Below are positions 29,420 to 64,000 of a stretch of 64,000 bases of DNA, piece after piece. Origin of the DNA: Streptomyces griseus (GTDB lineage Bacteria; Actinomycetota; Actinomycetes; Nanopelagicales; Nanopelagicaceae). The notes beneath the pieces are model-generated. The model was not told the DNA's origin. It saw nothing but the letters and a program-made list of their open reading frames with translations, and made no database searches. The DNA lies in NCBI GenBank assembly GCA_945865365.1, contig CAMBDL010000005.1:1-64000 (forward strand), in the 5' to 3' direction. The position numbers and the translations under genes are program-made. Each line of letters begins with the position of its first letter. Within the stretch, counting starts at the first letter, position 1.

Positions 29420-30039
29420 TATTGTCCTGGAAGCAAGTGGCGTGCAGGTTCTGAATAAGTGAGTCCGGCTATTAATCCATCATCGTCAAAGTGAATGCTT
29501 GTGACCGAAGCCAAGGAGCATTCACGCTTGCGTGGATCATGAAGTAAGCGTCGGTTTTCAATTGCACTTCTTAAAATCCATATAGGTAGCTGATGTGACA
29601 CACAAATTGCATCTTTTCCATTAGCGGCCTCTCGCGCTGCAAATACGGCAGCTAGCATGCGATTTACTTGCTGATCGTATGGTTCACCCCATGACGGCCG
29701 CCAAGGATTCCATAAGTGTCTCCATGCAGCAGGATGTCGCAACACTCCATCGCCAACCCCAAATGGCTTACCTTCGAATACATTTGCCGCCTCAATTAAA
29801 CGCTCATCGGTAGTTATTTCAACTGCGTGTGCTGCAGCAATTGGTGCCGCCGTCTCTTGTGCGCGCTGTAACGGTGAAACACATAGAGCACCTAGGTCAA
29901 TGGACTTAGACCAGTCTCCAAGTGCGTGTGCCATTTCTTGGCCGCGATCAGAGAGTCGCCATCCAGGTTGACGCCCATAGAGAATCTTCTGAGGGTTTTC
30001 TACCTCACCGTGACGAATCACATGTACCGTTGAACTCAT
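29419..30039 (-). CDS. Histidine phosphatase family protein
   Basis: A 206-residue phosphoglycerate-mutase-like protein. The catalytic RHGE motif is in VIRHGEV near residue 9; a second histidine is in VSHQLPIW. A similar gene heads the cytochrome c maturation operon of mycobacteria (the Rv0525 position), so the place is conserved, but its substrate is unknown. TATGCT lies six bases before the ATG and no ribosome site is seen, which suggests a leaderless start for the operon. Confidence 0.9.
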   Translation of the reverse strand: MSSTVHVIRHGEVENPQKILYGRQPGWRLSDRGQEMAHALGDWSKSIDLGALCVSPLQRAQETAAPIAAAHAVEITTDERLIEAANVFEGKPFGVGDGVLRHPAAWRHLWNPWRPSWGEPYDQQVNRMLAAVFAAREAANGKDAICVSHQLPIWILRSAIENRRLLHDPRKRECSLASVTSIHFDDDGLIAGLTYSEPARHLLPGQ

Positions 30040-30045
30040 TGGGTA

Positions 30046-30051
30046 AGCATA
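30046..30051 (-). promoter_or_regulatory. Probable -10 box of the resA-ccdA-resB-ccsB operon
   Basis: TATGCT on the minus strand, followed by exactly six bases and the ATG of the histidine phosphatase gene. Confidence 0.6.
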
Positions 30052-30077
30052 AAGCGTCCCTCAGAGCTCAAGTTCGT

Positions 30078-30083
30078 TAAGGT
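30078..30083 (+). promoter_or_regulatory. Probable -10 box of the HAD hydrolase gene
   Basis: TAAGGT, then exactly six bases, then ATG at 30090. No ribosome binding site is present. Confidence 0.6.
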
Positions 30084-30089
30084 AGTGAC

Positions 30090-30857
30090 ATGGCACTCAC
30101 GGCGAAGCGAGCAGCCTTTTTTGATGTAGATAACACGCTAATCCGTGGCTCCACGATCTACTTTCTTGGGCGTGGCATGTACCAACGTGGATATTTCACG
30201 AAAAAGGATATCTCCCGCTTTGTTCTAGCTAATCTGCGATTTCGTTTAACAGGTAAAGAAAATAGAGAAGAGATAGCTCGCTTTCAAGAATCTGCAACAA
30301 ATTTTATTGGTGGCCATAGCGTCAAAGATATTGAAGCAATTGCTCAAGAGATTTACGATGAGTTTGTTTCTCCTGCAATGTGGCAAGGAACGATTGATAT
30401 TGCACAAAAGCACTTAGCAAGTGATGAAGAAGTATGGTTAGTTACTGCCGCTCCGGAAGACATGGCTGTTCTTATTGCTAATCGCTTAGGATTTACTGGA
30501 GCTTTGGGAAGTAAAGCGCAGGTTAAAGATGGTGCTTACACAGGTGAGATGCTCGGCGCTCTGTTGCATGGAAAAGAAAAGGCAATAGCTATAAGGGATC
30601 TTGCTCAACGCGTAGGTTTGAAATTAGAAGATTGCTATGCGTACTCAGATAGTCATAACGATCTACCGTTATTGCAGTGTGTGGGTCATCCATCGGCGAT
30701 TAACCCAGATGCGATTCTTGGCCTGCGTGCAATGGCTGAAGGGTGGCCAATTCATGATTTTCGGCGTGCCAGATTTATTGGCCGTGCGATTTCACCAGTT
30801 GTCGTGCGGCTTGCAGCCTTAGCAACATGGCTCACTCCAAGGCGAAAGCGTCGTTGA
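30090..30857 (+). CDS. HAD-IB family hydrolase (SerB-like)
   Basis: A 255-residue haloacid-dehalogenase phosphatase of subfamily IB. The nucleophile motif FFDVDNTLIRGST is at the N-terminus, motif II is VTAAPEDM, and motif III/IV is YSDSHNDLPLL. The C-terminal 50 residues contain a basic, partly hydrophobic tail ending PRRKRR. It is divergent from the phosphatase operon with 50 bases between. Phosphoserine phosphatase is one possible activity, but the substrate is not decided by the sequence. Confidence 0.88.
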   Translation: MALTAKRAAFFDVDNTLIRGSTIYFLGRGMYQRGYFTKKDISRFVLANLRFRLTGKENREEIARFQESATNFIGGHSVKDIEAIAQEIYDEFVSPAMWQGTIDIAQKHLASDEEVWLVTAAPEDMAVLIANRLGFTGALGSKAQVKDGAYTGEMLGALLHGKEKAIAIRDLAQRVGLKLEDCYAYSDSHNDLPLLQCVGHPSAINPDAILGLRAMAEGWPIHDFRRARFIGRAISPVVVRLAALATWLTPRRKRR

Positions 30858-30897
30858 TTACGCAATAAGTACTAAAGCCCAGTAATGTAAGCAAGTT

Positions 30898-33093
30898 ATG
30901 GAAATGCGCTCATTCTCCGACTACTTACGTAGTGTCGATGACGCTGCGCTTTTAGAGCTTTTTGTTAAGCGCCCCGATCTTGTAGTACCAGTGCCACCAG
31001 ATGTTGCATCTCTTGCAGTACGTGCCTGTTCTCCGCCTAGTTTGGCTCGTGCAATTGATTCACTTAATCATTGGCAGTTTCAAGTTCTTGAGGCGGCGGC
31101 GGCATCAAATGAGCCATTCTCAATTAAATCAGTTGCAGGATTAACTGATAAATCTAGTTCTAGCGCTCTAACTTTTTTAATTTCGATGGGTTTAATATAT
31201 CCATCAAGTGATGGAATGCGCCTTCCTTCTCAGTTACGTGAAGTGCTTGGAAATGAGCCTGCTGGGCTTGGTCCAGCCTCAATGGTCAAACTTAAATTAG
31301 CAGATCTCGATAATGCGCCAGCTGATGCTAAGCGAGCACTTGAACGTTTAGTCTGGGGGCCACCTCGTGGAAGCGTTGGAGACATTAAAAATCCTGGACC
31401 AGGTGTTGCTTGGCTATTGGAAAGAAAATTTTTAGTACCTCTTGATCAGCGGACAGTTGTTCTGCCCCGTGAAGTTGCGATTTATTGTCGTGGTGGAAAA
31501 ATTCATAAAGAAAACCTTATAAATGCACCGCTTTTAACTGGTGCTATTCGTGATGAAAGACAGATTAATCTGGCATCAATTGCAAATATTTCAACTGTAC
31601 TGCGCTGGGTTGAAGAGTTATTAAATTTTTGGGCACAGGAACCGGCTGATGCTCTGCGTGCCGGGGGGCTGGGCGTACGCGATCTTAAAATTATTTCAAC
31701 CCATCTCGGTGTTGATGAATCGTGCACTGCCTTTATCACCGAACTTGCATTTCTGACCTCACTAATAAGTGTTGATTCAGATGATCGAATAATGCCCAGC
31801 AATAAGTTTGATGTCTGGCTGATGCAAACGCCCGCAGATAGATGGCAAGCTTTGGCCGCGGCTTGGTTAATCACTTCAAGAGCTAGCGGGCTGGTTGGCC
31901 GAGCAGAAGCAAAAAATGTTGCAGCACTTGGTCCTGAGTTAGATCGAGTTAATGCTGCGCGTGTTCGCGCACTTACTCTTTCAATTCTTAAAGAGAATCA
32001 AGGAACTGCGCCGAATTTAGCCTCATTTAACTCACTTCTTACGTGGCGCGCACCTGTTCGACGAAACTCATCGATGCAGGAAGAGCTTGCATCGTGGAGC
32101 TTACGTGAGGCTGAATGGCTTGGAATTACTGGTCAAGGTGCGCTTTCTCACTATGGTCTGGCTTTCCTTGACGGTGGCGACATGAGTTTTATTAATAAAG
32201 ATCTTCCAAAAACTGTCGACCATATCCTCATACAAAGTGATAACACGGCAATTGCTCCAGGGCCGTTAGAGCACGAAATCTCACAACAGTTGGCGATTAT
32301 GGCCGAAATTGAAAGCCGCGGCGGAGCAACTGTTTATAGATTTAGTGAAGCCACAATACGCAGAGCTTTAGATCATGGAAAAACTGGAGATGAGATAAAA
32401 GCATTTTTGATTAAGACTTCCAAGACTCCAATGCCACAACCACTTGAATATCTAATTGTTGATGTTGCAAAGAAGCATGGAAAGTTACGCGTTGGGAACA
32501 CTGCTTCATTCCTCCGATGCGAAGACACTGCATTGTTAGCACAAATTATGAATGATAAAAAGTTAGAAGTTCTTGCGCTAAGACGGATAGCACCAGAAGT
32601 AATTATTTGTAATCATGATGCAGTTGATGTAATGCGCCTTCTACGCGAAACGGGTTATTTACCGGCAGCAGAATCTGCCAATGGTTTAATTTTGACTGGC
32701 ACCCGGACCAACCGTGCGCAAACAAAACCACGTCCTCCAAGAATTATTGGAGAGATTGAAATTCCAGATAGTGACACGCTTAACGCTGCAATCCGCGCCA
32801 TACGTACAGGTGAAAAGTCGAGTCATAAACAGGCCCATCTTCGACAAGTTGCTAATGAAGCATTGGGTGCACTGCCACGAAGCACGGCAAATGAAACGAT
32901 GGATTTAGTAAATAGATATATTCTGGAGGAGAAATCGCTTTCTATTGGGTATGCCGATAACAATGGCGCGGTAACTCACCGAATAATCGATCCAATTCGC
33001 GTAAGTGCTGGAGCCTTAATCGCCCGTGACCACGCAACCGGGGAAGTACAGTCCTTTCGAATTCCGCGCATCACCGGCGTGGCTGCGTTATAG
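30898..33093 (+). CDS. Helicase_C_3 / XPB-associated protein
   Basis: A 731-residue cytoplasmic protein that resembles the actinobacterial proteins found beside XPB helicases (Rv0862c position in M. tuberculosis). These carry a Helicase_C_3 domain similar to the N-terminal part of XPB; here it should lie around residues 430-560 (VDHILIQSDNTAIAPGPL onwards). The C-terminal 80 residues look like a WYL-type fold (LSIGYADNNG..RIIDPIRV). No Walker motif is present, so it is not a helicase itself. Probable role in DNA repair with XPB. TAATGT lies nine bases before the ATG. Confidence 0.82.
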   Translation: MEMRSFSDYLRSVDDAALLELFVKRPDLVVPVPPDVASLAVRACSPPSLARAIDSLNHWQFQVLEAAAASNEPFSIKSVAGLTDKSSSSALTFLISMGLIYPSSDGMRLPSQLREVLGNEPAGLGPASMVKLKLADLDNAPADAKRALERLVWGPPRGSVGDIKNPGPGVAWLLERKFLVPLDQRTVVLPREVAIYCRGGKIHKENLINAPLLTGAIRDERQINLASIANISTVLRWVEELLNFWAQEPADALRAGGLGVRDLKIISTHLGVDESCTAFITELAFLTSLISVDSDDRIMPSNKFDVWLMQTPADRWQALAAAWLITSRASGLVGRAEAKNVAALGPELDRVNAARVRALTLSILKENQGTAPNLASFNSLLTWRAPVRRNSSMQEELASWSLREAEWLGITGQGALSHYGLAFLDGGDMSFINKDLPKTVDHILIQSDNTAIAPGPLEHEISQQLAIMAEIESRGGATVYRFSEATIRRALDHGKTGDEIKAFLIKTSKTPMPQPLEYLIVDVAKKHGKLRVGNTASFLRCEDTALLAQIMNDKKLEVLALRRIAPEVIICNHDAVDVMRLLRETGYLPAAESANGLILTGTRTNRAQTKPRPPRIIGEIEIPDSDTLNAAIRAIRTGEKSSHKQAHLRQVANEALGALPRSTANETMDLVNRYILEEKSLSIGYADNNGAVTHRIIDPIRVSAGALIARDHATGEVQSFRIPRITGVAAL

Positions 33094-33096
33094 ACT
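33091..33096 (+). promoter_or_regulatory. Probable -10 box formed partly by a stop codon
   Basis: TAGACT, six bases, then ATG at 33103. The first three bases are the TAG stop of the preceding gene. Confidence 0.6.
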
Positions 33097-33102
33097 TGCG
33101 CC

Positions 33103-34164
33103 ATGTTGTCCGCGCTAGAAAAACTCGTGAGGTTGGAGTCCCCAACCGAAGATCTAGATGCCTGTCGTCACGTTGTTGCACTTGCATCTGAATTAGCTCT
33201 TGAGGTTTTAGGTTCGCCTGCAACTATCCAAGAAGTAAAAGGGCGCCCAGTATTTTGGTGGGGCTCTGAAAATCCTGAGGTAATCGTGCTTGCACATTTA
33301 GACACTGTTTGGCCAAAAGGCTCATTTGAACCAGTATGGAGCGTTGAAGGAGATGCAGCACGCGGTCCAGGTGTCTTTGATATGAAAGCTGGCTTTATAC
33401 AAGCGCTCTATGCAATGCATGGAATCTCTGGTGCTGCAGCACTCGTTGCAACAACTGATGAAGAAACTGGAAGCGTGACTAGTAAAGAGTTCATAAAAGA
33501 TATTTCGAGTAAGGCTAAAGCGGTATTAGTGATTGAAGCCTCCCTAAACGGCAAAGTGAAAACTGGGCGTAAAGGTACTGCGATGTATCAAGTTCGAATT
33601 CATGGAAAAGCATCACACGCTGGACTAGAGCCCGAAAAAGGTGAAAACTCAACGGTAGAAATGGCGCATGCAATTCTGAGCATTACAGAGCTCGAGAATA
33701 AATCTCTGGGAACAACTGTAGTTCCAACAATGTTGCGCGCCGGAAATACAACTAACACTGTTCCGAATTTAGCTGTATTAGACATAGATGTACGATCATT
33801 TTCAATGGCTGAAATCGAACGAGTAGATGCAGCAATTCGAAACTTGCAGGCAGTCAATCCTGCAACACGTTATGAAATCTCTGGTGGTTTTAATCGACCC
33901 CCGCTGGAAACTACATCAACTATGGCGCTTTATGAACGTGCGGCTAGAGTTGCCGCCACTTTAGGTATGCCGCCACTTGAACACGCATCCGTTGGCGGTG
34001 CCAGTGACGGCAACTTCGCAGCTGCTGCAGGTGCACAAGTTCTAGATGGCTTAGGTGCAATAGGCGATGGCGCTCATGCTGCTCACGAGTGGGTAGACAT
34101 CACCACTCTTAAGCCTCAAAGCGCTTTTTTACATGCGCTCATTAGGGACTTACTTAATGACTGA
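33103..34164 (+). CDS. M20 family metallopeptidase
   Basis: A 353-residue M20/CPG2-like peptidase, probably cytoplasmic as no signal peptide is seen. The metal ligands are recognisable: H in LAHLDTVWP, D in GPGVFDMKAG, the catalytic and ligand glutamates in TTDEETGS, and the last histidine in GDGAHAAHEWV. The dimerisation domain contains HGKASHAGLEPEKGENS. Glutamate carboxypeptidase or acetylornithine/succinyl-diaminopimelate deacylase activity are possible; the substrate is not decided. It sits between the Helicase_C_3 and XPB genes and overlaps XPB by eight bases. Confidence 0.9.
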   Translation: MLSALEKLVRLESPTEDLDACRHVVALASELALEVLGSPATIQEVKGRPVFWWGSENPEVIVLAHLDTVWPKGSFEPVWSVEGDAARGPGVFDMKAGFIQALYAMHGISGAAALVATTDEETGSVTSKEFIKDISSKAKAVLVIEASLNGKVKTGRKGTAMYQVRIHGKASHAGLEPEKGENSTVEMAHAILSITELENKSLGTTVVPTMLRAGNTTNTVPNLAVLDIDVRSFSMAEIERVDAAIRNLQAVNPATRYEISGGFNRPPLETTSTMALYERAARVAATLGMPPLEHASVGGASDGNFAAAAGAQVLDGLGAIGDGAHAAHEWVDITTLKPQSAFLHALIRDLLND

Positions 34165-35806: not shown

Positions 35807-36071
35807 AGCGTTCGGGATCAACTCTCCAAAAATCGTGATGTTCACCGTCAATATGTATGACTGGAATCTGTTCACCATAAAGTTTCTCTAGTTCTGAATT
35901 TCCATCGATATAAATTTTTTCAATCGAAAATTCAAGTTCGCTCTGCAGAGATTCAAGGGTCTCTACAGCTACCTCACAAAGATGGCAACCATGTCTGGTG
36001 AAAATGGAGACCACAGGAGCATTAACCCTGTTAGTTTGCTTAAAGAATTCTGATTCCTCGCTTTGAGTCAC
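35769..36071 (-). CDS. Glutaredoxin-like protein
   Basis: A 100-residue thioredoxin-fold protein. The active site HGCHLCEVA has a CxxC pair near residue 29, and the cis-proline segment is QIPVIHIDGE. It belongs to the glutaredoxin-like DUF836 group common in Actinobacteria. The GTG start has no ribosome site; a weak GATGAT hexamer lies six bases upstream. Its last 38 bases are shared with the XPB 3' end on the other strand. Partner unknown. Confidence 0.88.
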   Translation of the reverse strand: MTQSEESEFFKQTNRVNAPVVSIFTRHGCHLCEVAVETLESLQSELEFSIEKIYIDGNSELEKLYGEQIPVIHIDGEHHDFWRVDPERFRSCLEKHRQRR

Positions 36072-36092
36072 GGAGGAATCATCTCACCCTGC

Positions 36093-36098
36093 TAACGT
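36093..36098 (+). promoter_or_regulatory. Probable -10 box of the secreted metallopeptidase gene
   Basis: TAACGT, exactly six bases, then GTG at 36105. It lies in a 33-base divergent gap. Confidence 0.6.
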
Positions 36099-36104
36099 GA
36101 GCAG

Positions 36105-38504: not shown

Positions 38505-38522
38505 TTATTATTTGGGTTACCT

Positions 38523-40510: not shown

Positions 40511-40516
40511 AGCGTA
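40511..40516 (-). promoter_or_regulatory. Probable -10 box of proC
   Basis: TACGCT on the minus strand, six bases, then the proC ATG. It lies in the 39-base divergent gap. Confidence 0.6.
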
Positions 40517-40543: not shown

Positions 40544-41356
40544 ATGTCGGAACTAAAGCCAGGTTTTGCACGTGATTGGGTTGAATTTACTGACCCACAT
40601 AACGCAGAAGAAATATTTAAGTGCGACCTAACCTGGTTGACCTCATATTGGACCTGTATTTATGGAGATGGCTGCCAAGGTGTATTCAAGAGTCAACCTG
40701 ATGCTGGTTGCTGTACCGAAGGCGCCATGTATACCGATGAAGAGGATGAAAAACGCACAGATAAAGCCGCAGCATATTTAACACCAGACATGTGGCAGTT
40801 TTATTCTGAAGCACGCCCTAAGAAACCTGGAGCAAAGCTTCGTATTTCAGAAAAAGATGAGGATGGCGAGCGCAAGACTCGGCGCGTAGAAGATGGTTGC
40901 ATCTTCTTAAACCGCAAAGGCTATGAGGCTGAAGGTTTTACCGGATCATTTGGTTGCGTATTACACCACCTTGCAATTAAGGAAAATAAGCACTTCGTAG
41001 ACACCAAGCCAGATGTGTGCTGGCAGTTGCCACTGCGACGCAGTTTTGAAACTCGTGAAGTTGGCGAGCGCGAATACTCCGTGACCGTTATTGGCGAATA
41101 CGAGCGCTTAGTATGGGGCGATGGTGGCGATGATTTTGATTGGTACTGCACGAGTAATACCGATGCCCATGTCGGCAAAGAGCCTGTCTATATTTCAAAT
41201 AAGTATGAGCTTCAAAAACTTATGGGCGAAGGGCCTTACGCTGAGTTAGCACGCATGTGTGATCAACGTATGGCGGGAATTCGTGATGCCCAAGCGCGAT
41301 CACTACCTCTCTTTGTAATCCAGCATCCAGCAACACTGGCTGCCGCTAAGCAATAA
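40544..41356 (+). CDS. Cysteine-rich conserved protein, possible metal binder
   Basis: A 270-residue soluble protein with a striking set of cysteines: 27, 38, 44, the pair 56-57, 119, 138, 159, 202 and 239, plus histidines 141-142. The segments AGCCTEGA, EDGCIFLN, GCVLHHLA and DVCWQLPLR recall the Zn/Fe-chelating DUF3109/YkgJ-type domain. That link is from memory and not certain. Acidic region 61-75. It is divergent from proC and 26 bases upstream of radA. Function unknown; an oxidoreductase or metal-cluster role is only a guess. Confidence 0.7.
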   Translation: MSELKPGFARDWVEFTDPHNAEEIFKCDLTWLTSYWTCIYGDGCQGVFKSQPDAGCCTEGAMYTDEEDEKRTDKAAAYLTPDMWQFYSEARPKKPGAKLRISEKDEDGERKTRRVEDGCIFLNRKGYEAEGFTGSFGCVLHHLAIKENKHFVDTKPDVCWQLPLRRSFETREVGEREYSVTVIGEYERLVWGDGGDDFDWYCTSNTDAHVGKEPVYISNKYELQKLMGEGPYAELARMCDQRMAGIRDAQARSLPLFVIQHPATLAAAKQ

Positions 41357-41370: not shown

Positions 41371-41376
41371 TAGGCT
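41371..41376 (+). promoter_or_regulatory. Probable -10 box of radA
   Basis: TAGGCT, exactly six bases, then ATG at 41383. No ribosome binding site is present. Confidence 0.6.
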
Positions 41377-42750: not shown

Positions 42751-43598
42751 ACCCGCTTGAAAAACCGATAGTTAACTGGTTTAAGAGAAATAAACGGGAT
42801 TTACCATGGCGCAATACATCACCATGGGGAGTCATGGTCAGCGAGTACATGCTGCAACAAACACCTGTAAATCGTGTTTTACCACAGTGGATTCAATGGA
42901 TGGAACGTTGGCCAACTCCATCTGATTTAGCACAAGCAACTCCGGCACAGGTAATTACTGCATGGGGCCGACTTGGTTATCCGAGGCGCGCACTGCGATT
43001 ACATAGTGCTGCTCAGATTATCGCCGAAGATTTTAATAATAAAGTTCCTAGTAATGCTAAAACTCTGCAACTACTTCCTGGAATCGGTGAATACACAGCT
43101 GCAGCCATTGCAGCATTTGCTTTTGAGGAAGCAACCTTGGTGATGGATGTAAATATTCGGCGCTTGCTTGTACGCGTGATAGATGGTGAAGAACATCCAA
43201 AGCCCGCCCCAACAGTGAGGGAAAAGAGTTCACGTCAATCATTAATGCCAAGCAAGGATGCACATATCTGGGCGGCGGCAACTATGGAATTAGGTGCACT
43301 CGTATGTACTTCCTCTAACCCAAAGTGTGAACTCTGTCCTGTCATTTCACAATGTAATTGGCGCAAGAATGGTTATCCAAAGAGTGAACTCGTTCGGAAA
43401 TCTCAAGATTGGCATGGAACCGATCGCAAGTGTCGTGGAACAATTGTTCAAGCCTTACGCGAGAATGAATCCTTAACCGAGAATGCAATTAAGAAACTCT
43501 GGCCAGATGAGTCCCAGGTAGAAAAAGCCATTAAAACACTGCAGGACGACCAGTTAATTCAGGCTATTTCTCGCAATCGCTATAGGCTTCCACAATGA
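42747..43598 (+). CDS. mutY: A/G-specific adenine glycosylase
   Basis: A 283-residue base-excision repair enzyme that removes adenine opposite 8-oxoguanine. The catalytic glutamate is in SEYMLQQTPV, the helix-hairpin-helix is LPGIGEYTAAAI, the catalytic aspartate is in VMDVNIRR, and the 4Fe-4S cluster cysteines are in CTSSNPKCELC and SQC. The usual NUDIX-like C-terminal domain is missing; the last 70 residues look like a small winged helix. Overlaps radA and the following GNAT gene by four bases each. Confidence 0.93.
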   Translation: MNPLEKPIVNWFKRNKRDLPWRNTSPWGVMVSEYMLQQTPVNRVLPQWIQWMERWPTPSDLAQATPAQVITAWGRLGYPRRALRLHSAAQIIAEDFNNKVPSNAKTLQLLPGIGEYTAAAIAAFAFEEATLVMDVNIRRLLVRVIDGEEHPKPAPTVREKSSRQSLMPSKDAHIWAAATMELGALVCTSSNPKCELCPVISQCNWRKNGYPKSELVRKSQDWHGTDRKCRGTIVQALRENESLTENAIKKLWPDESQVEKAIKTLQDDQLIQAISRNRYRLPQ

Positions 43599-44063: not shown

Positions 44064-46565
44064 TTAGGCTGTTGGTGCCTCAGCTAAATCCTCTGGGCTA
44101 TCAGGGGTTTCAACTTTGGAAGCACCCTTGAAAGTGAACACTGCGTCAGCGCCTTCACCTTCGGCATCGACAACAACGATTTCGCCAGCCTTGAGCTCAC
44201 CAAACAAAATTCTTTCAGAGAGCGCATCTTCGATCTCACGTTGAATAGTGCGGCGAAGTGGTCGTGCGCCAAGAAGAGGATCGTAACCACGAGCAGCGAG
44301 TAAGTCTTTAGCTGCAGGAGTTAATTCGATTCCCATATCTTTTGCTTGCAAGCGATCATCTAGGTTCTTGATCATTAAATCAACGATCTGAACAATCTGA
44401 TCCTTAGTTAACTGGTGGAAGACGATTACGTCATCGATACGGTTCAGGAACTCAGGACGGAAATGCGTCTTAAGTTCATCATTTACCTTGCCCTTCATTC
44501 GATCATAATTTGTCTGTTCATCATCGCTATTTGCAAAACCAAGACCTAGGCTCTTTGAAATATCTCGAGTTCCAAGGTTGGTAGTCATAATGATGACCGT
44601 ATTTTTAAAGTCAACGGTGCGGCCTTGTGAATCTGTTAGGCGACCATCTTCTAAGACCTGCAGAAGTGAGTTAAAGATATCTGGGTGTGCCTTTTCGATC
44701 TCATCGAAGAGAACTACCGAGAAAGGGCGACGACGAACTTTTTCAGTTAACTGTCCACCTTCGTCGTAACCGACGTAGCCTGGAGGTGCACCAAATAAAC
44801 GTGATGCTGTGTGGCGCTCTGAGTATTCAGACATATCGAGTTGAATCAAAGCATCTTGATCACCGAATAAGAACGATGCCAAGGTACGTGAGAGTTCGGT
44901 CTTACCAACACCTGATGGCCCGGCAAAGATAAATGATCCACCAGGACGTCGTGGATCTTTAAGACCTGCTCGTGTACGGCGAATCGCTTGCGACAACGCC
45001 TTAATTGCTTGATCTTGACCGATGACACGATTATGTAGTTCATCTTCCATGCGAAGTAGGCGTGCCGTCTCTTCCTCGGTTAACTTAAATACTGGAATTC
45101 CAGTTGAAATAGATAGAACTTGTGCGATCAACTCTTCATCGACCTCAGTGACCTTGTCTAAATCAGTTGCTTTCCAGTTCTTTTCAGCTTCATGCTTTTC
45201 AGCGATTAAGGTTTTTTCTTTATCACGAAGCGATGCCGCTTTTTCAAAGTCCTGACCATCGATAGCCGACTCTTTTTCCTTGCGCGCATCGGCGATTTTT
45301 TCATCAAATGCACGGAGTTCAGCAGGCGCGGTCATGCGCTTGATTCGAAGGCGTGAGCCAGCCTCATCAATAAGATCAATCGCTTTGTCTGGCAAGAATC
45401 GATCAGAGACATATCGATCAGCTAAATTTGCTGCTGCCGCCAATGCGCCATCAGTAATCGATACACGGTGATGTGTTTCGTAGCGATCGCGCAAACCTTT
45501 TAGAATTTCAATTGTGTGTGCAACTGATGGCTCTTTCACTTGAATCGGTTGGAAGCGGCGCTCAAGGGCAGCATCTTTTTCAACATGCTTGCGGTATTCA
45601 TCCAGAGTTGTTGCACCGATTGTCTGGAGCTCACCACGTGCCAACATAGGCTTTAAAATACTGGCCGCATCGATTGCGCCTTCTGCTGCGCCTGCGCCAA
45701 CAAGGGTGTGAATCTCATCGATAAAGAGAATGATGTCACCTCGAGTTTTAATCTCTTTCAAGACCTTCTTCAAACGCTCTTCGAAATCTCCACGGTAACG
45801 GCTTCCGGCAACAAGTGCCCCTAAGTCAAGTGAGTACAGCTGCTTATCTTTCAAAGTCTCAGGAACATCATTCTTATAAATCGCTTGTGCAAGACCCTCG
45901 ACAACGGCTGTTTTACCTACACCTGGTTCACCAATTAACACTGGGTTATTCTTAGTACGGCGAGAAAGTACTTGCATCACACGTTCGATTTCATTCTCGC
46001 GACCGATAACAGGATCTAACTTTCCTTCACGTGCAGCTTGCGTAAGGTTTCTTCCAAATTGATCAAGGACTAATGATGTTGCAGGCGTTCCTTCTGCAGG
46101 TCCACCTTGTGCGACGGCCTCTTTACCTTGATAACCTGATAAAAGTTGAATAACTTGTTGCCGAACTCGATTTAAATCTGCACCGAGTTTTACAAGCACC
46201 TGTGCGGCAACGCCTTCACCTTCACGGATTAAGCCGAGCAAAATATGTTCAGTACCAATGTAGTTGTGACCTAGTTGCAAGGCTTCACGTAAGGAGAGCT
46301 CCAGAACTTTTTTAGCACGAGGGGTAAATGGGATATGACCGCTCGGGGCTTGCTGTCCTTGTCCGATGATCTCTTCCACTTGGGCGCGAACACCTTCGAG
46401 TGAGATTCCAAGTGATTCCAACGCTTTAGCTGCGACGCCTTCGCCCTCATGAATTAGACCCAGCAGAATGTGCTCGGTACCGATGTAGTTGTGATTGAGC
46501 ATGCGAGCCTCTTCTTGGGCCAGCACAACAACACGGCGGGCTCGGTCGGTAAAGCGCTCAAACAT
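44064..46565 (-). CDS. clpC: ATP-dependent Clp protease ATPase subunit ClpC
   Basis: An 833-residue Hsp100 unfoldase that feeds proteins to ClpP. Two N-terminal Clp repeats (about 1-145), first AAA+ domain with GEPGVGKT, a UVR segment near 425-460, and second AAA+ domain with [11 protein letters not shown] are all present. The ATG at 46565 ([11 protein letters not shown]) has AAGGAG seven bases upstream and is the family start; a more upstream frame adds nine residues without support. No obvious CtsR or ClgR operator was recognised. Confidence 0.97.
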
Positions 46566-46572
46566 GGGCTTA

Positions 46573-46578
46573 CTCCTT
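46573..46578 (-). promoter_or_regulatory. Ribosome binding site of clpC
   Basis: AAGGAG on the minus strand, seven bases before the ATG at 46565, which fixes the clpC start. Confidence 0.8.
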
Positions 46579-46688
46579 TTTATTCGATTCATTAAGCCTA
46601 ATACCTACAGGCCAAGACCCGCGCGGTGGATAGCTCGTGCCAGTTACAACCCTAGAGGTAGGGGTTTTATGCCCGAAAAGCCCACTAT

Positions 46689-48712: not shown

Positions 48713-49477
48713 TCAAGCATTTCGTTCGTGAATTAAGCGAAGGCCAATCAAGGTTAAGTCTGGCTCATGCTTATCAATAGTTTCAGAGACTCCGATTATT
48801 AATGGCGCTAATCCGCCTGTGGCGATGACTGTTGGCTTGCCTGAATATGATTCGGCTAATTCTGCAGTGATTCGATCAACTAATCCATCGACTTGGCCGG
48901 CAAAACCATAGATTGTGCCTGATTGCAAAGCTTCAACAGTATTTTTACCGATGACATTTTTTGGTCTGACAAGTTCAACTTTACGAAGTTGGGCAGCGCG
49001 TGCAGCTAGCGCATCCACTGAGATTTCTATACCTGGAGCAAGTGCGCCACCTAAAAACTCGCCTTTAGGTGAGACAACATCTAAATTAGTAGAGGTCCCA
49101 AAATCCACAACGATTGATGGGCCACCAAATAATGTGTGTGCTGCAAGCGTATTAACGATGCGATCGGCGCCAATCTCCTTTGGATTATCGACTAGCAAAG
49201 GCACCCCCGTCTTGATACCAGGTTCAACAATGGTTGTTCGCACATCGGCAAAATAATCTGCAATCATGTTGCGCAGCTCCCGCAGAGTTGCAGGTACGGT
49301 AGAACAAATCGATAGTCCAGTAACTGTGTAGTCCTCAACTAAAGAGCGATACTGCAGCCACAATTCATCGGCAGTACTTCGTGGGTCGGTTTTAACACGC
49401 CACGATCGTATAAGTTCTTCACCATCAAAAATACCTAATACAGTATTTGTATTACCCACATCAATTGTTAGCAGCAT
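48713..49477 (-). CDS. coaX: Type III pantothenate kinase
   Basis: A 254-residue kinase of the ASKHA fold for the first step of coenzyme A synthesis. The phosphate motif DVGNTNTVLG is at the N-terminus, GADRIVNTLAAH and DFGTSTNLDVV are the other conserved blocks. It overlaps the end of panC by one base (TAATG). Usually panD lies between panC and coaX in mycobacteria; it is absent here. Confidence 0.94.
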   Translation of the reverse strand: MLLTIDVGNTNTVLGIFDGEELIRSWRVKTDPRSTADELWLQYRSLVEDYTVTGLSICSTVPATLRELRNMIADYFADVRTTIVEPGIKTGVPLLVDNPKEIGADRIVNTLAAHTLFGGPSIVVDFGTSTNLDVVSPKGEFLGGALAPGIEISVDALAARAAQLRKVELVRPKNVIGKNTVEALQSGTIYGFAGQVDGLVDRITAELAESYSGKPTVIATGGLAPLIIGVSETIDKHEPDLTLIGLRLIHERNA

Positions 49478-55072: not shown

Positions 55073-55077
55073 GCCGG

Positions 55078-55084: not shown

Positions 55085-55085
55085 G

Positions 55086-56042: not shown

Positions 56043-56048
56043 GCGATA

Positions 56049-56054
56049 AGACTA
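56049..56054 (-). promoter_or_regulatory. Probable -10 box of tilS
   Basis: TAGTCT on the minus strand, exactly six bases before the tilS ATG. It could drive the tilS-hpt-ftsH-fol transcript. Confidence 0.6.
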
Positions 56055-57254: not shown

Positions 57255-57329
57255 TTAAAGACCTCCGGGGGAAGGGCTTAAGAATAAATGAGGGAACTTA
57301 GAAAAGCTTGGTAATACGTGCTGGTGTCT

Positions 57330-58136: not shown

Positions 58137-59041
58137 TATTTTTCACCTGTCATTTCAAAGAATGTTTCTTCAAGATTTGGTAGTTGTGGAGTTAGTTGGG
58201 ACAAGGTTATTCCTGCTCCAAAAGCTGCACGGTTGAATTCGATCGCCCAGGCAGCTGGACCTTCAACATGAACTGCTCCATCGCGGATTACGGCGTGATG
58301 TCCTGCAGTCTGTGCAATAGAAAGTAGTGTGACAAGATCACTTTCATTTGCACCTTTGGCGATAATTACTGGTTGCTGACTAAACATTAAATCGGCCATT
58401 TTGCCAGTAAAGACAACTTCACCTTTTCGCAACATCACTAAGTAATCACTAATGAGTTCGAGCTCTGAGAGTAAGTGCGAAGATACAAAGACCGAGGTTC
58501 CATCATTTGCGAGTGAGCGGAGCAGCGCACGAACTTCTTGAATACCTTCGGGATCTAAACCATTAGTTGGCTCATCCAGCATTAACAGTTGTGGATTTGG
58601 CAGTAAGGCTGCCGCAATTCCTAAGCGTTGTTTCATTCCTAATGAATAAGTTTTATATTTTGATTTACCACGATCACCAAGACCAACTTGCTCAAGTAAT
58701 CCCTGCACTCGATCGGTTGAGAATCCACCAAGGGCTGCTAGATAGTTTAAATTCTCTTTACCGCTTAGCGCTGGATAAAAAGCTGGTCCTTCAATCATGG
58801 CGCCAACTCGCGGCAAATACTTTTCGGGGTGTTTAATTGACTCACCTAATATCTCACCGGTACCGCCGGTTGGGGTGATTAACCCCAACAACATGCGCAT
58901 AGTGGTGGTCTTGCCTGAACCATTTGGGCCCACAAAACCACAGATCGTCCCAAGCGGAACTTCAAAAGTTGCATGAGAAACAGCCATGCGGTCGCCATAT
59001 TTCTTGCTTAAATCGGTGACCGAGATTGCAGTGTTGGACAT
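58136..59041 (-). CDS. ABC transporter ATP-binding protein
   Basis: A 301-residue ATPase. Walker A is GPNGSGKTT, the signature is YSLGMKQRLGIA (an LSGGQ variant usual for ABC-2 exporters), Walker B is LLMLDEPTNGLDPEG. The ATG at 59041 (MSNTAISVTDLSKKYG) is preferred over a frame that runs into metZ on the other strand. Only 26 bases separate the two divergent starts. Confidence 0.92.
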   Translation of the reverse strand: MSNTAISVTDLSKKYGDRMAVSHATFEVPLGTICGFVGPNGSGKTTTMRMLLGLITPTGGTGEILGESIKHPEKYLPRVGAMIEGPAFYPALSGKENLNYLAALGGFSTDRVQGLLEQVGLGDRGKSKYKTYSLGMKQRLGIAAALLPNPQLLMLDEPTNGLDPEGIQEVRALLRSLANDGTSVFVSSHLLSELELISDYLVMLRKGEVVFTGKMADLMFSQQPVIIAKGANESDLVTLLSIAQTAGHHAVIRDGAVHVEGPAAWAIEFNRAAFGAGITLSQLTPQLPNLEETFFEMTGEK

Positions 59042-59067
59042 AGGTATTACTCTGCCACAATTATCCA

Positions 59068-60285
59068 ATGAGTACACCATGGGGATACCGCCCACGCAAT
59101 GAGCGTGAAGAGCCTCAATGGGATCTGCATCCGCAAACTCATGCAGTGCGCGCTGGCCTTGCCCGGTCTGGCTTTGGTGAGACATCAGAGGCGCTTTATT
59201 TAAATAGCGGTTTCACATATTCCAGCGCTGAAGAGGCAAATGACTCCTTCGCCGAGGAAACTGATCATTTTCTTTATGGCCGTTTTCATAATCCAACTAT
59301 CGCTATGTTTGAACAACGCTTAGCTGCGATTGAAGGTGCAGATTTCTGCGTTGCAACCGGCTCAGGTATGTCGGCAATGTTTGCCTCTCTTGCATGTTTA
59401 GTAGAACAAGGTGATCACGTTGTTGCATCTGCAGCCATGTTTTCATCCTGCCACGTTGTTATTACGGAGTTTTTACCAAAATGGGGCGTAACGTTTGAAT
59501 TAGTAAAGGGAAATGATCCTGCCGCGTGGGCGAAAGCTTTAAGTAAGCCAACTAAAGCGGTATTTATTGAAACTCCAAGTAATCCCTTAATGGAAATTGT
59601 AGATATTCGCATGGTCAGCGATTTAGCCCATAAAGTTGGCGCAACAGTCATTGTTGATAACGTCATGGCATCTCCTGTTTTGCAAAAGCCACTTCAATTA
59701 GGTGCCGATGTGGTTATGTATTCAGCTACAAAACATATTGATGGTCAGGGACGTGTTCTTGCTGGAGCAATTCTTGGATCATCTTCATACATTCATGAAA
59801 AACTTATGCCTTTCACTCGCCATACTGGACCATCACTAAGTCCATTTAATGCATGGGTGCTTGTTAAATCATTAGAAACTATGGAGATGCGCGTTGAGCG
59901 CATGGCGGCAAACGCTCAAGCTGTCGCTGAATTCTTGGAATCACGAGTTGAGGTTAAATCTGTGCGCTTCCCTGGACTTAAATCTCACCCCGATCATGCC
60001 CTTGCAATGAAACAGATGAGCGGCGGCGGAACCACTGTAGGCATTGAATTTGTAGGGGATCAAAGCCAAGTCTTTGCCTTTATGAACAAGCTAAAAGTCA
60101 TTGATATCTCCAATAACTTGGGTGACAGCAAGTCACTTATTACTCATCCAGCTTCATCTACTCATCGCCGTTTAGCACCTGAAGTGCAAGCGCAAATGGG
60201 CATAACGCCATCAGTGCTTCGCTTATCAGTTGGCTTAGAACATTCGAGTGATTTAATTAAAGACTTAACTCAAGCGCTGAGCTGA
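59068..60285 (+). CDS. metZ: O-succinylhomoserine sulfhydrylase, MetZ-type
   Basis: A 405-residue PLP enzyme of the Cys/Met metabolism family, probably making homocysteine directly from an activated homoserine and sulfide. YGRFHNPTIAMFE, TGSGMSAMF, ETPSNPLMEIVD and the PLP lysine in YSATKHIDGQGR are present. GHIDGQGR-type residues and overall length favour MetZ over MetB, but cystathionine gamma-synthase cannot be excluded from sequence alone. The 3' end overlaps ctaB by 16 bases. Confidence 0.88.
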   Translation: MSTPWGYRPRNEREEPQWDLHPQTHAVRAGLARSGFGETSEALYLNSGFTYSSAEEANDSFAEETDHFLYGRFHNPTIAMFEQRLAAIEGADFCVATGSGMSAMFASLACLVEQGDHVVASAAMFSSCHVVITEFLPKWGVTFELVKGNDPAAWAKALSKPTKAVFIETPSNPLMEIVDIRMVSDLAHKVGATVIVDNVMASPVLQKPLQLGADVVMYSATKHIDGQGRVLAGAILGSSSYIHEKLMPFTRHTGPSLSPFNAWVLVKSLETMEMRVERMAANAQAVAEFLESRVEVKSVRFPGLKSHPDHALAMKQMSGGGTTVGIEFVGDQSQVFAFMNKLKVIDISNNLGDSKSLITHPASSTHRRLAPEVQAQMGITPSVLRLSVGLEHSSDLIKDLTQALS

Positions 60286-61139
60286 GCGGCTACAAGTACA
60301 ACCGATAATAAACTTAAATACGTTATCGACCATTGGAAGATTTTCCCCGCGGTCTTGCCATAATCAGCTGAGCCCTCTTTCAAGGCAATGAGTTCGCGGG
60401 CAAATACCAGGCCTAATAGCACTGTCACAACTAATGACCACATTGGCAATGACGCTGAAAGAATGAGCCACACAGATGATGCGATCATTAAAATTGTATG
60501 GAACCACATTTCGCGATGAACACGAGCTTTAGTTGCAACAACTGGAAGCATAGGTATTCCGGCCGCTGAATAATCGTCTTTGTACTTAATCGCAAGTGCC
60601 CAAAAATGTGGTGGGGTCCAGAAGAAGATCACCATAAAGAAAGCGAGCGCCGGAATTGACAGTGAGTTTGTGACTGCAGCCCAACCGATAAATACTGGCA
60701 TACACCCGGCTGCGCCACCCCAGACAATATTCTGCGATGTTCGACGCTTCAATCCAATTGTGTAGACAACAACATAGAAAGCAATCGCAATCAATGAAAG
60801 TAAGGTTGCAAGAGGTGTAGTAAAAATCCAAAATAGAATTAATGAAAGCGCACCGATAGAGGTTGCAAAAATAGTGGCTTGTTGCTTACTTAACACGCCA
60901 GTCACGATTGGGCGCTTAGATGTGCGTGCCATTAACTTATCAATATCACTTTCAATCACCATATTGAAAGCATTGGCACTACCTGCCGATAATGTTCCAG
61001 CAAGAATTGTCATAGCAACTAAAGTAAAAGAGGGTAGGCCTTTTGCAGCTAGGACCATAGCTGGCAGGGTCGTCACTAAAAGTAGTTCGACGACCCGAAG
61101 CTTCATCAGATCTACATATCCCTGCATAGCCGTTATCAC
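60270..61139 (-). CDS. ctaB: Protoheme IX farnesyltransferase (heme O synthase)
   Basis: A 289-residue UbiA-family membrane enzyme that adds a farnesyl group to heme B for heme-copper oxidases. The first aspartate motif is NMVIESDIDKLMARTSKRP and the second region is the KYKDDYSAAGIPMLP loop, both typical of CtaB/CyoE. About eight helices. TAATCT lies exactly six bases before the GTG start. It supplies the terminal oxidase, which is not in this window. Confidence 0.95.
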   Translation of the reverse strand: MITAMQGYVDLMKLRVVELLLVTTLPAMVLAAKGLPSFTLVAMTILAGTLSAGSANAFNMVIESDIDKLMARTSKRPIVTGVLSKQQATIFATSIGALSLILFWIFTTPLATLLSLIAIAFYVVVYTIGLKRRTSQNIVWGGAAGCMPVFIGWAAVTNSLSIPALAFFMVIFFWTPPHFWALAIKYKDDYSAAGIPMLPVVATKARVHREMWFHTILMIASSVWLILSASLPMWSLVVTVLLGLVFARELIALKEGSADYGKTAGKIFQWSITYLSLLSVVLVAAQLSA

Positions 61140-61145
61140 TAGGCA

Positions 61146-61151
61146 AGATTA
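61146..61151 (-). promoter_or_regulatory. Probable -10 box of ctaB
   Basis: TAATCT on the minus strand, six bases, then the GTG of ctaB. Confidence 0.6.
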
Positions 61152-61284
61152 CTCAGCAACTACATATCGCGTTTACGGATTCTTCTCAGCCAAGAGCCAC
61201 AGTCCCTACACCTAAGAAGAGCACCGCTGTTCAAGCATGGACTCCAATTAAGGCTCCTGCCATGGGAGTTAAAGGCCCAAGAGT
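61152..61284. other. Divergent intergenic region, the longest in the window
   Basis: The bases between the ctaB and propeller -10 boxes. Short open frames here lack starts with the window's leaderless spacing or a ribosome site. A weak ACTCC/GGAGT inverted pair near 61245-61270 was seen, but it has no T-run. Nothing else was recognised. Confidence 0.4.
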
Positions 61285-61290
61285 TAGAGT
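61285..61290 (+). promoter_or_regulatory. Probable -10 box of the secreted YncE-like gene
   Basis: TAGAGT, exactly six bases, then ATG at 61297. No ribosome binding site. Confidence 0.6.
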
Positions 61291-61296
61291 GAGGGC

Positions 61297-62376
61297 ATGC
61301 GCCGTAGCTTTCTACTCTTTATGTTAACAACATCACTCTGCACCCTCTCGATACCGGCACAGAGTGATGTTGTTTCGAGTGATACAAAGATGTCACTTGT
61401 TAAGACAATCTCAGGATCAATATCCCCCAAGTCTGTACGGTCATCGGGCACTGGATTAGTAAGTGCGCATAACATGATGTACCGGCACAGTGTGACAATT
61501 TATAACGCCCATACTTTTGAATTAATTAAGACCATTCCAGATTCGGTAAAGCTTTCAAAGTTTGGTCTTTCTAAATATTCATCAATCTTTAAAGGTGCGC
61601 CAGTTGAGGGTGCCTATTCTCCTGATGGTAAATACTTATATGTCACTAACTATGCCATGTATGGCAAAGGCTTTAATCGTGAAGGCCACGACACGTGTTC
61701 GCCGGCTTCACATTACGACACAAGTTTTCTTTATCGCATCGAGTTGGAGAGTTACACAATTGATGCCGTTTATCCGGTGGGCTCTGTGCCTAAAGTTGTA
61801 GAAGTAACCCCAGATAATAAGTACATCCTTGTTTCCAACTGGTGCTCATATGACCTAAAAGTTATATCGGTTGCAAGCCAAAAAACGGTAAAGACGATCA
61901 AAATTGGTCGGTACCCACGAGGTATTGCCGTTAGCAGTGATAGCAAGACGGCTTATGTAGCCGAAATGGGCGGCGGTAAAATCCACGTTCTCAACTTAGA
62001 GGATTTTTCAATCTCTTACATACCTATTGGCATCACGCCGAGAGCAATTGTTCTTTCCCCCGATAATACAAAGATGTTTGTAACCCTTAACTTATCGGGC
62101 AAGGTCGCCTCTTGGGACTTAATTGCAAGAAAAAGTTTAGGGACCGTGACAACAGGTAAGGCCGCTCGCTCGCTCGCAATTTCTAGTGATGGAACTGCCC
62201 TCTTTGTGGTGAACTTTACAAGTGACACTGTCTCTAAATTACGAACAAGTGATATGAAGATTTTACAGACTATTAAAGTCTGTAATGAGCCCATAGGCGT
62301 GACTTATGATGCCCCAACATCCCGGACATGGATCGCTTGTTATGGTGGATCAATCAAAATCTTTGACAATAAATAG
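61297..62376 (+). CDS. Secreted YncE/YVTN-type beta-propeller protein
   Basis: A 359-residue exported protein. A signal peptide of about 24 residues (cleavage near PAQS) is followed by repeats of the YVTN family: YSPDGKYLYVTN, VTPDNKYILVSN, VSSDSKTAYVAE, LSPDNTKMFVTL and ISSDGTALFVVN, about one per 40 residues, forming a seven-bladed propeller. Four cysteines (CSPASH, NWCSYD, KVCNEP, WIACYG) may make disulfides. No enzyme motif; probably a binding or scaffold protein outside the membrane. The stop abuts the convergent carboxypeptidase stop with no gap. Confidence 0.87.
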   Translation: MRRSFLLFMLTTSLCTLSIPAQSDVVSSDTKMSLVKTISGSISPKSVRSSGTGLVSAHNMMYRHSVTIYNAHTFELIKTIPDSVKLSKFGLSKYSSIFKGAPVEGAYSPDGKYLYVTNYAMYGKGFNREGHDTCSPASHYDTSFLYRIELESYTIDAVYPVGSVPKVVEVTPDNKYILVSNWCSYDLKVISVASQKTVKTIKIGRYPRGIAVSSDSKTAYVAEMGGGKIHVLNLEDFSISYIPIGITPRAIVLSPDNTKMFVTLNLSGKVASWDLIARKSLGTVTTGKAARSLAISSDGTALFVVNFTSDTVSKLRTSDMKILQTIKVCNEPIGVTYDAPTSRTWIACYGGSIKIFDNK

Positions 62377-63552
62377 TTAAGGTGTGGCAGTAGCTTCAGA
62401 GATCACTGCTGGAATATTAGGAGCTGCAATTCTGCCCAATAATCGATCAATTGCGGCTCGCGCTTTATCGCTAGCACGCGTACCGCGTGGGATCTCATCG
62501 GCCAAAGTAACAAAGATGTATTCACGGTCAGTTGATTCAACATACCCAGCAAGAGTTACGGTTCCATTGAGCGTTCCAGTCTTTGCTCTTACTAAACCCA
62601 CAGCGCTTGGGGCAGTAGTTAAAAAACGATAGCGCAGAGTTCCTGACACTCCTGCCACTGGTAATGATTTATAGAAGAGTTCATATTTTGGATCGTTACG
62701 CAGTTTAAAGAGAAGTTTGCCTAACATGCTTGCGGTAATTCGATTCTCTTTTGATAAGCCGCTGGCATCGACTGCAATCAACTTTGTTGAATCAATCTCA
62801 AAGCTATTGAGGAGTTGTTCAAAGGTCAGTTGAACTCCAATGTCACTGAGTGAATAACCCGCCGCTTGCGAAGACAGGCGCGCCAAGCGTTGAGATAATA
62901 AATTATCGCTCCACTTGAGCGAGAAATCTAGAATTTTGGAGAGTTCTGGAGATTCATCTCCCACAATGAACTCATTTGAATCACGTAAGGCTTTACTACT
63001 TGTCACAGATTTTATTGCTGGTTTAAAGCCACGCTTAGCCCAAAAAGCCTTTAAATTCGCCACATCTTGCGAGTAAAGTCCAGCATATTCAACTGTAATA
63101 TTTTTGAGAGATCCGCCATTACTCCTCTTTATCGCGCTCAATGCATTGAAGGCAAGATAAGGAAGTGATGCCCGGTCCATTTTCCGAGCGACGCTATGGC
63201 TCAAGCTAATCCATGGGTCGAGTGTCCCCTGAATTACCAGAGTTTTAGGTTGACTGCCCAGCCAAATCTGCGTGGTGAATGATTTCTCTGGCTCTAAATA
63301 TGTAAGTGCCGATGCAGCTGCAAATATCTTCATGACTGATGCGGGCTTGCGCTGAGAGAAAGAGTTTTTTTCAAAGACAACTTCACCTGATATGCCATCG
63401 ATTAAAACAAATGCAGGATTTGCCAGTGCGGGTAGTTTTAAGAACTTATCAAAGGCGGCTGGAATCGAAGCCGCTGACAAGACAGCATGTGCCGGTAACG
63501 CTGAAAGTGCAGTTGCTATCGCAAGTACAGCAAAAAAACGCTTATTGCGCAT
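62377..63552 (-). CDS. dacB: D-alanyl-D-alanine carboxypeptidase, PBP4 (S13) family
   Basis: A 391-residue exported serine peptidase acting on peptidoglycan. The signal peptide is followed by the SxxK motif SVMK in RKPASVMKIF, the SxN motif SDN in KWSDNLLSQRL, and the KTG triad in VRAKTGTLNG. The ATG at 63552 is preferred; a TTG nine codons upstream overlaps a small upstream ORF. It starts seven bases after that small ORF and may be translated with it. Confidence 0.9.
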   Translation of the reverse strand: MRNKRFFAVLAIATALSALPAHAVLSAASIPAAFDKFLKLPALANPAFVLIDGISGEVVFEKNSFSQRKPASVMKIFAAASALTYLEPEKSFTTQIWLGSQPKTLVIQGTLDPWISLSHSVARKMDRASLPYLAFNALSAIKRSNGGSLKNITVEYAGLYSQDVANLKAFWAKRGFKPAIKSVTSSKALRDSNEFIVGDESPELSKILDFSLKWSDNLLSQRLARLSSQAAGYSLSDIGVQLTFEQLLNSFEIDSTKLIAVDASGLSKENRITASMLGKLLFKLRNDPKYELFYKSLPVAGVSGTLRYRFLTTAPSAVGLVRAKTGTLNGTVTLAGYVESTDREYIFVTLADEIPRGTRASDKARAAIDRLLGRIAAPNIPAVISEATATP

Positions 63553-63559
63553 GGGCCTA

Positions 63560-63658
63560 TTAGCGCCACATCGATGCAATAAGAATATTAGTCAAGGTTA
63601 AAAGAGCAATTACACAGAGAATACGAACGACATAAGCGATCGTATTGATAGCAGTCAT
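63560..63658 (-). CDS. 32-residue membrane ORF upstream of dacB
   Basis: A small open frame: it begins MTAINTIAYVVRILC, continues as one hydrophobic helix, and ends ASMWR before a TAA. TAAACT lies exactly six bases before the ATG, the same spacing as for many recognised genes here. There is no ribosome site. The dacB start follows seven bases after its stop. Whether it is a free membrane peptide or a leader that couples dacB translation cannot be told. No family is recognised. Confidence 0.55.
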   Translation of the reverse strand: MTAINTIAYVVRILCVIALLTLTNILIASMWR

Positions 63659-63664
63659 GTAATC

Positions 63665-63670
63665 AGTTTA
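63665..63670 (-). promoter_or_regulatory. Probable -10 box of the small ORF-dacB unit
   Basis: TAAACT on the minus strand, exactly six bases before the small ORF ATG. It overlaps the divergent -10 box of the methyltransferase gene by two bases. Confidence 0.5.
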
Positions 63671-63674
63671 GAGT
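63669..63674 (+). promoter_or_regulatory. Probable -10 box of the SpoU methyltransferase gene
   Basis: TAGAGT, exactly six bases, then GTG at 63681. It shares bases 63669-63670 with the opposite -10 box. Confidence 0.6.
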
Positions 63675-63680
63675 GGCACC

Positions 63681-64000
63681 GTGTCTTCTCCAACTACCCC
63701 CGCCACCATTGGCCCAGGTGAGTTTTTCCCAGTTGTCGGCGTAGGCCCGCACGAAAAGCCTTGGCCACAGGGTGAGCAATACGACCCTGAACTTTTGCTG
63801 AATGGTGATCGTAGAAATGTTTTAGATCACTATAGATACTGGACTGTTGAAGCCATTGTTGCTGATCTAGATACCAAGCGTCATAAGCTGCATATTGCAA
63901 TTGAAAACTGGCAACATGATTTAAATATTGGCTCGGTAGTGCGAACCGCAAATGCCTTTAATGTTTCTGGTGTCCATATCGTGGGCAAGCGCGATTGGAA
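63681..64000 (+). CDS. TrmH/SpoU family RNA methyltransferase (partial, 5' part)
   Basis: The first 106 codons of a gene that runs out of the window. The protein starts MSSPTTPATIGPGEFFPV. It reaches the SpoU motif 1 region NIGSVVRTANAFNVSGV, the knot-type 2'-O-methyltransferase signature. The RNA target cannot be decided from this part. The GTG start is chosen for its TAGAGT box six bases upstream and the lack of any upstream extension with a better signal. Confidence 0.85.
   Translation, partial: MSSPTTPATIGPGEFFPVVGVGPHEKPWPQGEQYDPELLLNGDRRNVLDHYRYWTVEAIVADLDTKRHKLHIAIENWQHDLNIGSVVRTANAFNVSGVHIVGKRDW

Follow-up and report, generated by a model that had tools for sequence, protein, structure and literature searches.

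The 64,000-nucleotide stretch analyzed here (hereafter the window; positions 1 to 64,000 of contig CAMBDL010000005.1, GenBank assembly GCA_945865365.1) carries a series of genes in which a hexamer of the form TANNNT stands upstream of the start codon, separated from it by six or seven bases. These hexamers are very probably the −10 elements of leaderless promoters, whose transcripts would be translated without a Shine-Dalgarno (SD) site; the basis for this reading, which is one of sequence, consists of a spacing peak, footprints in related genomes, sequence make-up, and gene context. RNA polymerase, presumably with the principal sigma factor, would start transcription at the first nucleotide of the start codon or at most one base away from it, and this 5' start codon would be recognized directly by the ribosome, as in other leaderless mRNAs. 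A box may overlap the stop codon of the preceding gene, either by its TA or by its last T, in which case the promoter would need almost no extra DNA, and two divergent genes may be served by overlapping boxes on opposite strands. The window is contig 5 of an assembly with 26 contigs (1.41 Mb), and its RadA protein shares 89–98% identity with the best 80 of 253 loci; the source organism is read as an acI-A freshwater actinobacterium, Candidatus Planktophila.

Spacing of TANNNT before start codons

The layout was first noticed in a sequence-only reading of the window, which proposed a count over many genes as a check. Because start codons might have been chosen in that reading to fit the motif, counting was start-agnostic: a gene was scored at spacing d (0–25) if any plausible start codon has TANNNT at that distance. 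This count was adopted instead of a single coding-score start per gene, with which most of the window sites were lost and 3 genes were left at spacing 6; raw genome-wide pattern counts that ignore gene starts were uninformative (532 vs. 482 in the reversed control). For comparison, we used two further Planktophila genomes (G072 and G073), a congener (G021), nine other Actinomycetes (720 kb), and Escherichia coli K-12 (100 kb, in which the gene finder called 68 genes and the two records list 51 and 41 features).

In a held-out sample of the same genome (378 kb from contigs C1–C4, the window excluded; 27% of the genome and 306 called genes), the counts were 46 genes for spacing 6 and 30 for spacing 7, against 3–14 at all other spacings. 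Out-of-frame start codons of the same regions gave 3 and 8, respectively, and TANNNT occurs at any given spacing before 0.8% of the in-frame start codons that lie deep inside genes (4245 codons). The same peak was found in G072 (367 genes; 59 at spacing 6 and 30 at 7, with a background of 8.5 per spacing) and in G073 (335 genes; 58 and 26, background 7.0), and none was found in the 100 kb of E. coli, so that the proposed count bears out the layout well beyond the window, where it gave 10 of 56 genes at spacing 6, 1 at 7, and 8 at 15. The layout is thus not due to chance.

Expressed as an excess at spacings 6 and 7 together, the signal concerns 19% of 307 genes in our own sample, 24% of 62 in G021, 1–20% in the nine other Actinomycetes, and −2% of the 68 genes of E. 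coli. Genes with a divergent neighbor are expected to lead their transcript, and among these the excess rises to 40% of 72 in our own sample and to 51% of 16 in G021 (2–42% in the nine other class members, with small numbers of 14–28 genes each), as against 9% of the 140 genes of our own sample that follow a same-strand gene at a gap under 40.

Two elements of the sequence-only reading have to be revised. It held the spacing to be strictly six bases, but among 237 promoters from 1.32 Mb of Planktophila sequence the ratio of 6 to 7 is 173:64, and upstream regions of radA alone use both (49 at 6 and 10 at 7, n = 59); the even spacing of six bases in the window is a chance effect of local sampling. 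It also singled out the high share of such genes, which, at near 20%, is the figure published for Actinobacteria (Zheng 2011, PMC3160421); taken singly, spacing and share are therefore unremarkable.

Conservation, start-site context, and rival explanations

The twelve sites first claimed in the window, all with six intervening bases, are exact at their coordinates, and nuoA, for which seven bases had been claimed, indeed has its box at that distance. One further site, before a GNAT gene, was absent from that list. The sites are given below, with the number of relatives' upstream regions that have a box at 6/7 where this was counted.

17544–17549, minus strand: nuoA box TAAGAT, 7 bases before the GTG start at 17536
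25516–25521, plus strand: box TACAAT of the PLDc_N gene (assigned by Pfam PF13396), start 25528
30046–30051, minus strand: histidine phosphatase box TATGCT, start 30039; 28/28 relatives
30078–30083, plus strand: HAD box TAAGGT, start 30090; 28/28 relatives
33091–33096, plus strand: M20 box TAGACT, start 33103; 21/46 relatives
36093–36098, plus strand: metallopeptidase box TAACGT, GTG start 36105; 16/46 relatives
40511–40516, minus strand: proC box TACGCT, start 40504; 47/47 relatives
41371–41376, plus strand: radA box TAGGCT, start 41383; 62/62 relatives
43583–43588, plus strand: GNAT gene box TAGGCT, within the 3' end of mutY, start 43595; 27/27 relatives
56049–56054, minus strand: tilS box TAGTCT, start 56042; 28/28 relatives
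61146–61151, minus strand: ctaB box TAATCT, GTG start 61139; 30/30 relatives
61285–61290, plus strand: YVTN protein box TAGAGT, start 61297; 14/17 relatives
63665–63670, minus strand: box TAAACT of an open reading frame (ORF) of 32 amino acids (aa), start 63658; overlaps the spoU box on a common TA
63669–63674, plus strand: spoU box TAGAGT, GTG start 63681; 28/28 relatives

For these footprint counts, orthologous starts were placed in the relatives, and a box was counted when TANNNT stood 6 or 7 bases upstream of a start codon in frame and no more than 12 codons away; identical upstream regions were counted once, loci whose N-terminus could not be aligned were removed, and the relatives share ancestry, so that the counts are not independent events. 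Ten of the 12 listed genes were compared in this way, and seven of them (histidine phosphatase, HAD, proC, radA, tilS, ctaB, and spoU) have a box at 6/7 in every distinct upstream region, as does the GNAT gene, whose conservation partly reflects coding constraint since the box sits in the coding sequence of mutY. At four control genes of the window, a box at 6/7 was found in 0 of 172 upstream regions (mutY 0/57, lysS 0/37, the gene at 49477 0/39, and the gene at 40544 0/39). In addition, the ctaB box tracks the start codon when the start moves to other in-frame positions in relatives. At the histidine phosphatase start, the string ACGCTTTATGCT (30046–30056) is near-invariant in relatives, which goes beyond the needs of a bare TANNNT.

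The start-site context was compared between classes of starts (leaderless, SD-like, or neither) that are exclusive by definition, 13 of 1113 genes with both signals at different starts having been excluded. The base at −1, which played no part in site selection, is expected to be a pyrimidine if transcription begins at the start codon; this was so for 205/247 leaderless-type starts, compared with 181/379 SD-like starts, 218/474 starts with neither signal, and 4464/9147 internal codons. The purine at +1 is fixed by the choice of ATG or GTG, and the −1 pyrimidine/+1 purine preference of mapped start sites in Mycobacterium tuberculosis aligns with the start codon here. A divergent neighbor lies upstream of 114/243 leaderless starts vs. 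73/376 SD-like ones. Taken together, the footprints, the −1 pyrimidine bias, and the excess at genes with a divergent neighbor fit leaderless promoters and, with the spacing peak, support the leaderless reading first put forward for genes with TANNNT six bases before the start.

Outside the neighborhood of the box, every position in the 237 promoters holds at most 0.08 bits. No conserved −35 element was found in this set, with just a weak T (44%, 0.11 bits) about 35 bases upstream of the start in the subset of 106 divergent promoters; the TG of an extended −10 element occurs in 9/237, and the most common box is TAGGCT (28/237). SD-like sites are present in 0/59 upstream regions of radA and in 11/45 of M20. 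Of the strong ribosome sites claimed for several other genes of the window, the one at clpC was confirmed, where AAGGAG precedes ATG 46565; the putative nuoI start at 9268 shows no such site. The longest clpC ORF begins nine codons too early (46565–46592, minus strand), and the ATG that AAGGAG precedes opens the protein with MFERFTD. An Rfam search of the window gave no match.

Several observations weigh against the leaderless reading. Within the window alone, spacing 15 (8/56 genes) is nearly as common as spacing 6 (10/56); the excess among divergent genes is small in two of the nine other Actinomycetes (2% and 4%); the box is present in only part of the relatives for M20 and the metallopeptidase; and some control spacings are occupied, namely 9/10 (15/46) and 15/16 (8/46) at M20, 12/13 at spoU (11/28) and radA (6/62), and 9/10 at tilS (6/28), most control spacings being low.

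Among the rival explanations, the one that survives best, although it is unlikely, is that the promoters are real and that the mRNAs carry very short leaders of 1–5 bases. The alternation of the spacing between 6 and 7 would accord with this, as would the lysS-like ORF (48691, minus strand), in which TANNNT stands at 9/10 before the start in 37/37 relatives and whose leader may be as short as about 3 bases. However, the base preferences of mapped start sites coincide with the start codon itself, and the spacing is the published distance from box to start site. It is very improbable that the hexamer is a signal in the RNA, read by the ribosome, instead of a promoter box in the DNA. What speaks for it is the constant distance to the start codon and the position of some boxes within the preceding gene, where their letters could sit in an operon mRNA, but the excess is strongest where the neighbor is divergent (40% vs. 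9% at short same-strand gaps), head-to-head boxes overlap on opposite strands, an identical TAAACT stands 28–39 bases before the start in six relatives (see below), and the motif matches known −10 elements. Chance combined with a selective choice of start codons, to which the frequency of spacing 15 in the window might point, is refuted by the held-out counts (46 and 30 vs. 3–14), by the same peaks in G072 and G073, and by the conservation at orthologous starts vs. 0/172 in controls.

Shared stop codons and head-to-head pairs

Leaderless promoters of this kind may be fused with the end of the preceding gene. Both M20 and tilS start 9 bases past an upstream stop, and the TAG of that stop, which belongs to the ORF 30898–33093 in the case of M20 and to an NlpC/P60 gene (56052–57254) in that of tilS, is the first half of their box. 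In 24/28 relatives, the tilS box also serves as the stop of an open frame upstream; the other 4 keep the box (TAC or TAT) without a stop. A second register, in which the T of the stop codon is the last T of the box, is found at the PLDc_N gene (stop at 25521–25523; gap of 4).

In the 1.32 Mb of Planktophila sequence, same-strand ATG/GTG candidates number 29 at gap 9, vs. a mean of 11.6 at gaps 5–8 and 11–20 (Poisson p = 1.3e-5). Stop and box together give TARNNT at 24/40 candidates with gaps of 9/10, compared with 44/294 that have the corresponding letters at gaps 5–8 and 11–40 (Fisher p = 3e-9). At gaps 9/10, TAG stops are enriched (19/40 vs. 71/294, p = 0.004) and TGA stops depleted (2/40 vs. 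54/294, p = 0.04); all these p-values take genes of related genomes as independent and rest on counts of candidate start codons instead of genes. The 24 fused cases precede 24 different downstream proteins, M20 and tilS included. The second register accounts for 9/16 candidates at gap 4 and 3/25 at gap 5. With a fully intergenic box, as at gaps 16 and 19, 6/12 candidates each carry it too, so that high shares are not confined to the shared registers; at gaps 9/10, other Actinomycetes have 3/7 fused candidates and E. coli 0/3, which are too few for comparison.

Such fusions could arise easily because the stop codon provides TA at no cost, and the excess of the 9-base gap argues that they are retained. 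On balance, we favor the view that Planktophila reuses the stop codon of a gene within the promoter of the gene that follows. If so, adjacent genes could be transcribed as an operon and also as separate leaderless units with hardly any additional DNA, and the choice of stop codon would be restricted by the promoter. Together with the overlapping head-to-head boxes, leaderless initiation would then be a means of genome streamlining.

Among divergent genes, 23 pairs with the layout on both sides were found in the same 1.32 Mb, both ORFs being coding-like and of at least 50 codons. The first bases of their starts are 19–82 bp apart, with no single preferred distance among the 23 pairs. Controls with shifted spacings gave no pair in six trials and 1 in a seventh; the nine other Actinomycetes (720 kb) contain 3 such pairs, and E. 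coli (100 kb) none. The boxes overlap in 5/23 pairs, at distances of 19, 23, and 24 bp, at which two polymerases would hardly fit together, and the two genes should therefore compete. In the window, the histidine phosphatase and HAD genes form a pair at 51 bp, and spoU and the 32-aa ORF one at 23 bp, which stands outside the 23 because the partner ORF is short. In further head-to-head pairs of the same genome (L202, L203, L207, and L208), exactly 22 bases separate the start codons and the two boxes have TA in common; judging by their sequences, we take L203 to pair a MoaD-like with a TauE-like gene, and L208 an AroA-like with an SRAP-like gene.

The 23-bp head-to-head pattern was rejected as an enrichment of the window's own genome, which has 7 matches vs. 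5 in the reversed control; it is enriched across 37 Planktophila genomes (165 vs. 71) and less so in 23 other genomes (26 vs. 14). Five of the 7 matches are flanked by two ORFs with their starts at the site (one being the 32-aa probable relic), and two are not.

The spoU locus was followed in 30 loci, of which 27 have the joint box AGTTTAGAGT and three have no box. In 16/30, a membrane-protein gene of 115–123 aa begins 6 or 7 bases past TAAACT; in 6/30, a like gene begins 28–39 bases past the same TAAACT, each time after a purine-rich, SD-like stretch. From these arrangements, one and the same TAAACT promoter appears to drive a gene that is leaderless in some relatives and has a leader in others, as would befit a promoter but not a ribosome site. 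Only short ORFs are found in the window (32 aa) and in two relatives (16 and 22 aa; L106 and L120); of the remaining loci, one is cut by a contig end and another (L122) has a different long ORF. The 32-aa ORF (63560–63658, minus strand) corresponds to the start and end of a membrane protein of about 116 aa (L101), with an apparent in-frame loss of the part between them. It is probably a relic, as are the ORFs of 16 and 22 aa, with an assembly error as a possible alternative for the 32-aa ORF. A Pfam search with its full-length relative gave no family.

At the HAD start, a palindrome, AGTGACATGGCACT (30084–30097), is centered on the start codon and could be an operator over the start site. The sequence AGTGNCATGNCACT is retained in the HAD upstream regions of 22/28 relatives and is perfect in some (L155–L157). 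As the operator of a regulon it was rejected: with one mismatch allowed, the genome has one other site, which does not exceed the reversed control (2 vs. 2 in total), and no regulon is proposed.

Comparison with known leaderless and bidirectional promoters

In the literature collection searched, no paper was found that joins leaderless with Nanopelagic, or Planktophila with transcription start site; judged from titles and abstract openings of the papers listed, no description of divergent leaderless promoters or of a shared stop codon was recognized either. With a TANNNT rule at 6–7 bases, start codons and promoters can be assigned from sequence for about one fifth of the genes, in a lineage with few cultures. 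The shared-stop and head-to-head arrangements link leaderless initiation with genome compaction in a testable manner.

In M. tuberculosis, TANNNT lies 7–12 bases upstream of the transcription start site (Cortes 2013, PMC3898074), and leaderless promoters of that species resemble those described here in the TANNNT box, its distance to the start, the lack of a clear −35 element, the purine at +1, and the pyrimidine at −1, as well as in their share, about a quarter of the genes with a primary start site (PMC3898074). The difference is that our host belongs to a low-GC, streamlined freshwater lineage, in which the starts are predicted from sequence. The TA-led genes of Actinobacteria and Deinococcus-Thermus have TAnnnT about 10 bp upstream (Zheng 2011, PMC3160421), which is the same signal, and they make up about 20% of genes in Actinobacteria, as here. 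In layout, spacing, and share, our promoters are those of published leaderless genes, and the core of the result is a new lineage for a known kind. The survey of TA-led genes is reportedly older than the acI genomes.

In Deinococcus radiodurans, TANNNT is found about 6–7 bp before nearly a third of the genes (PMC12340547), a box spacing like that of Planktophila; this bacterium belongs to another phylum, and its most common box is TACACT, instead of TAGGCT (28/237).

The enterobacterial bidirectional promoters, in which opposite-strand start sites lie 7–25 bp apart with overlapping boxes (Warman, Grainger et al.; PMC10268837, PMC12825309), are similar in this overlap, predicted here at 19, 23, and 24 bp (5/23 pairs, plus spoU). 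They differ in that 18 bp is the most common distance and one of the two RNAs is often non-coding, whereas here transcription is predicted to start at both start codons. Relative to these known systems, the shared stop codons and the head-to-head pairs are the less expected part of the arrangement in Planktophila.

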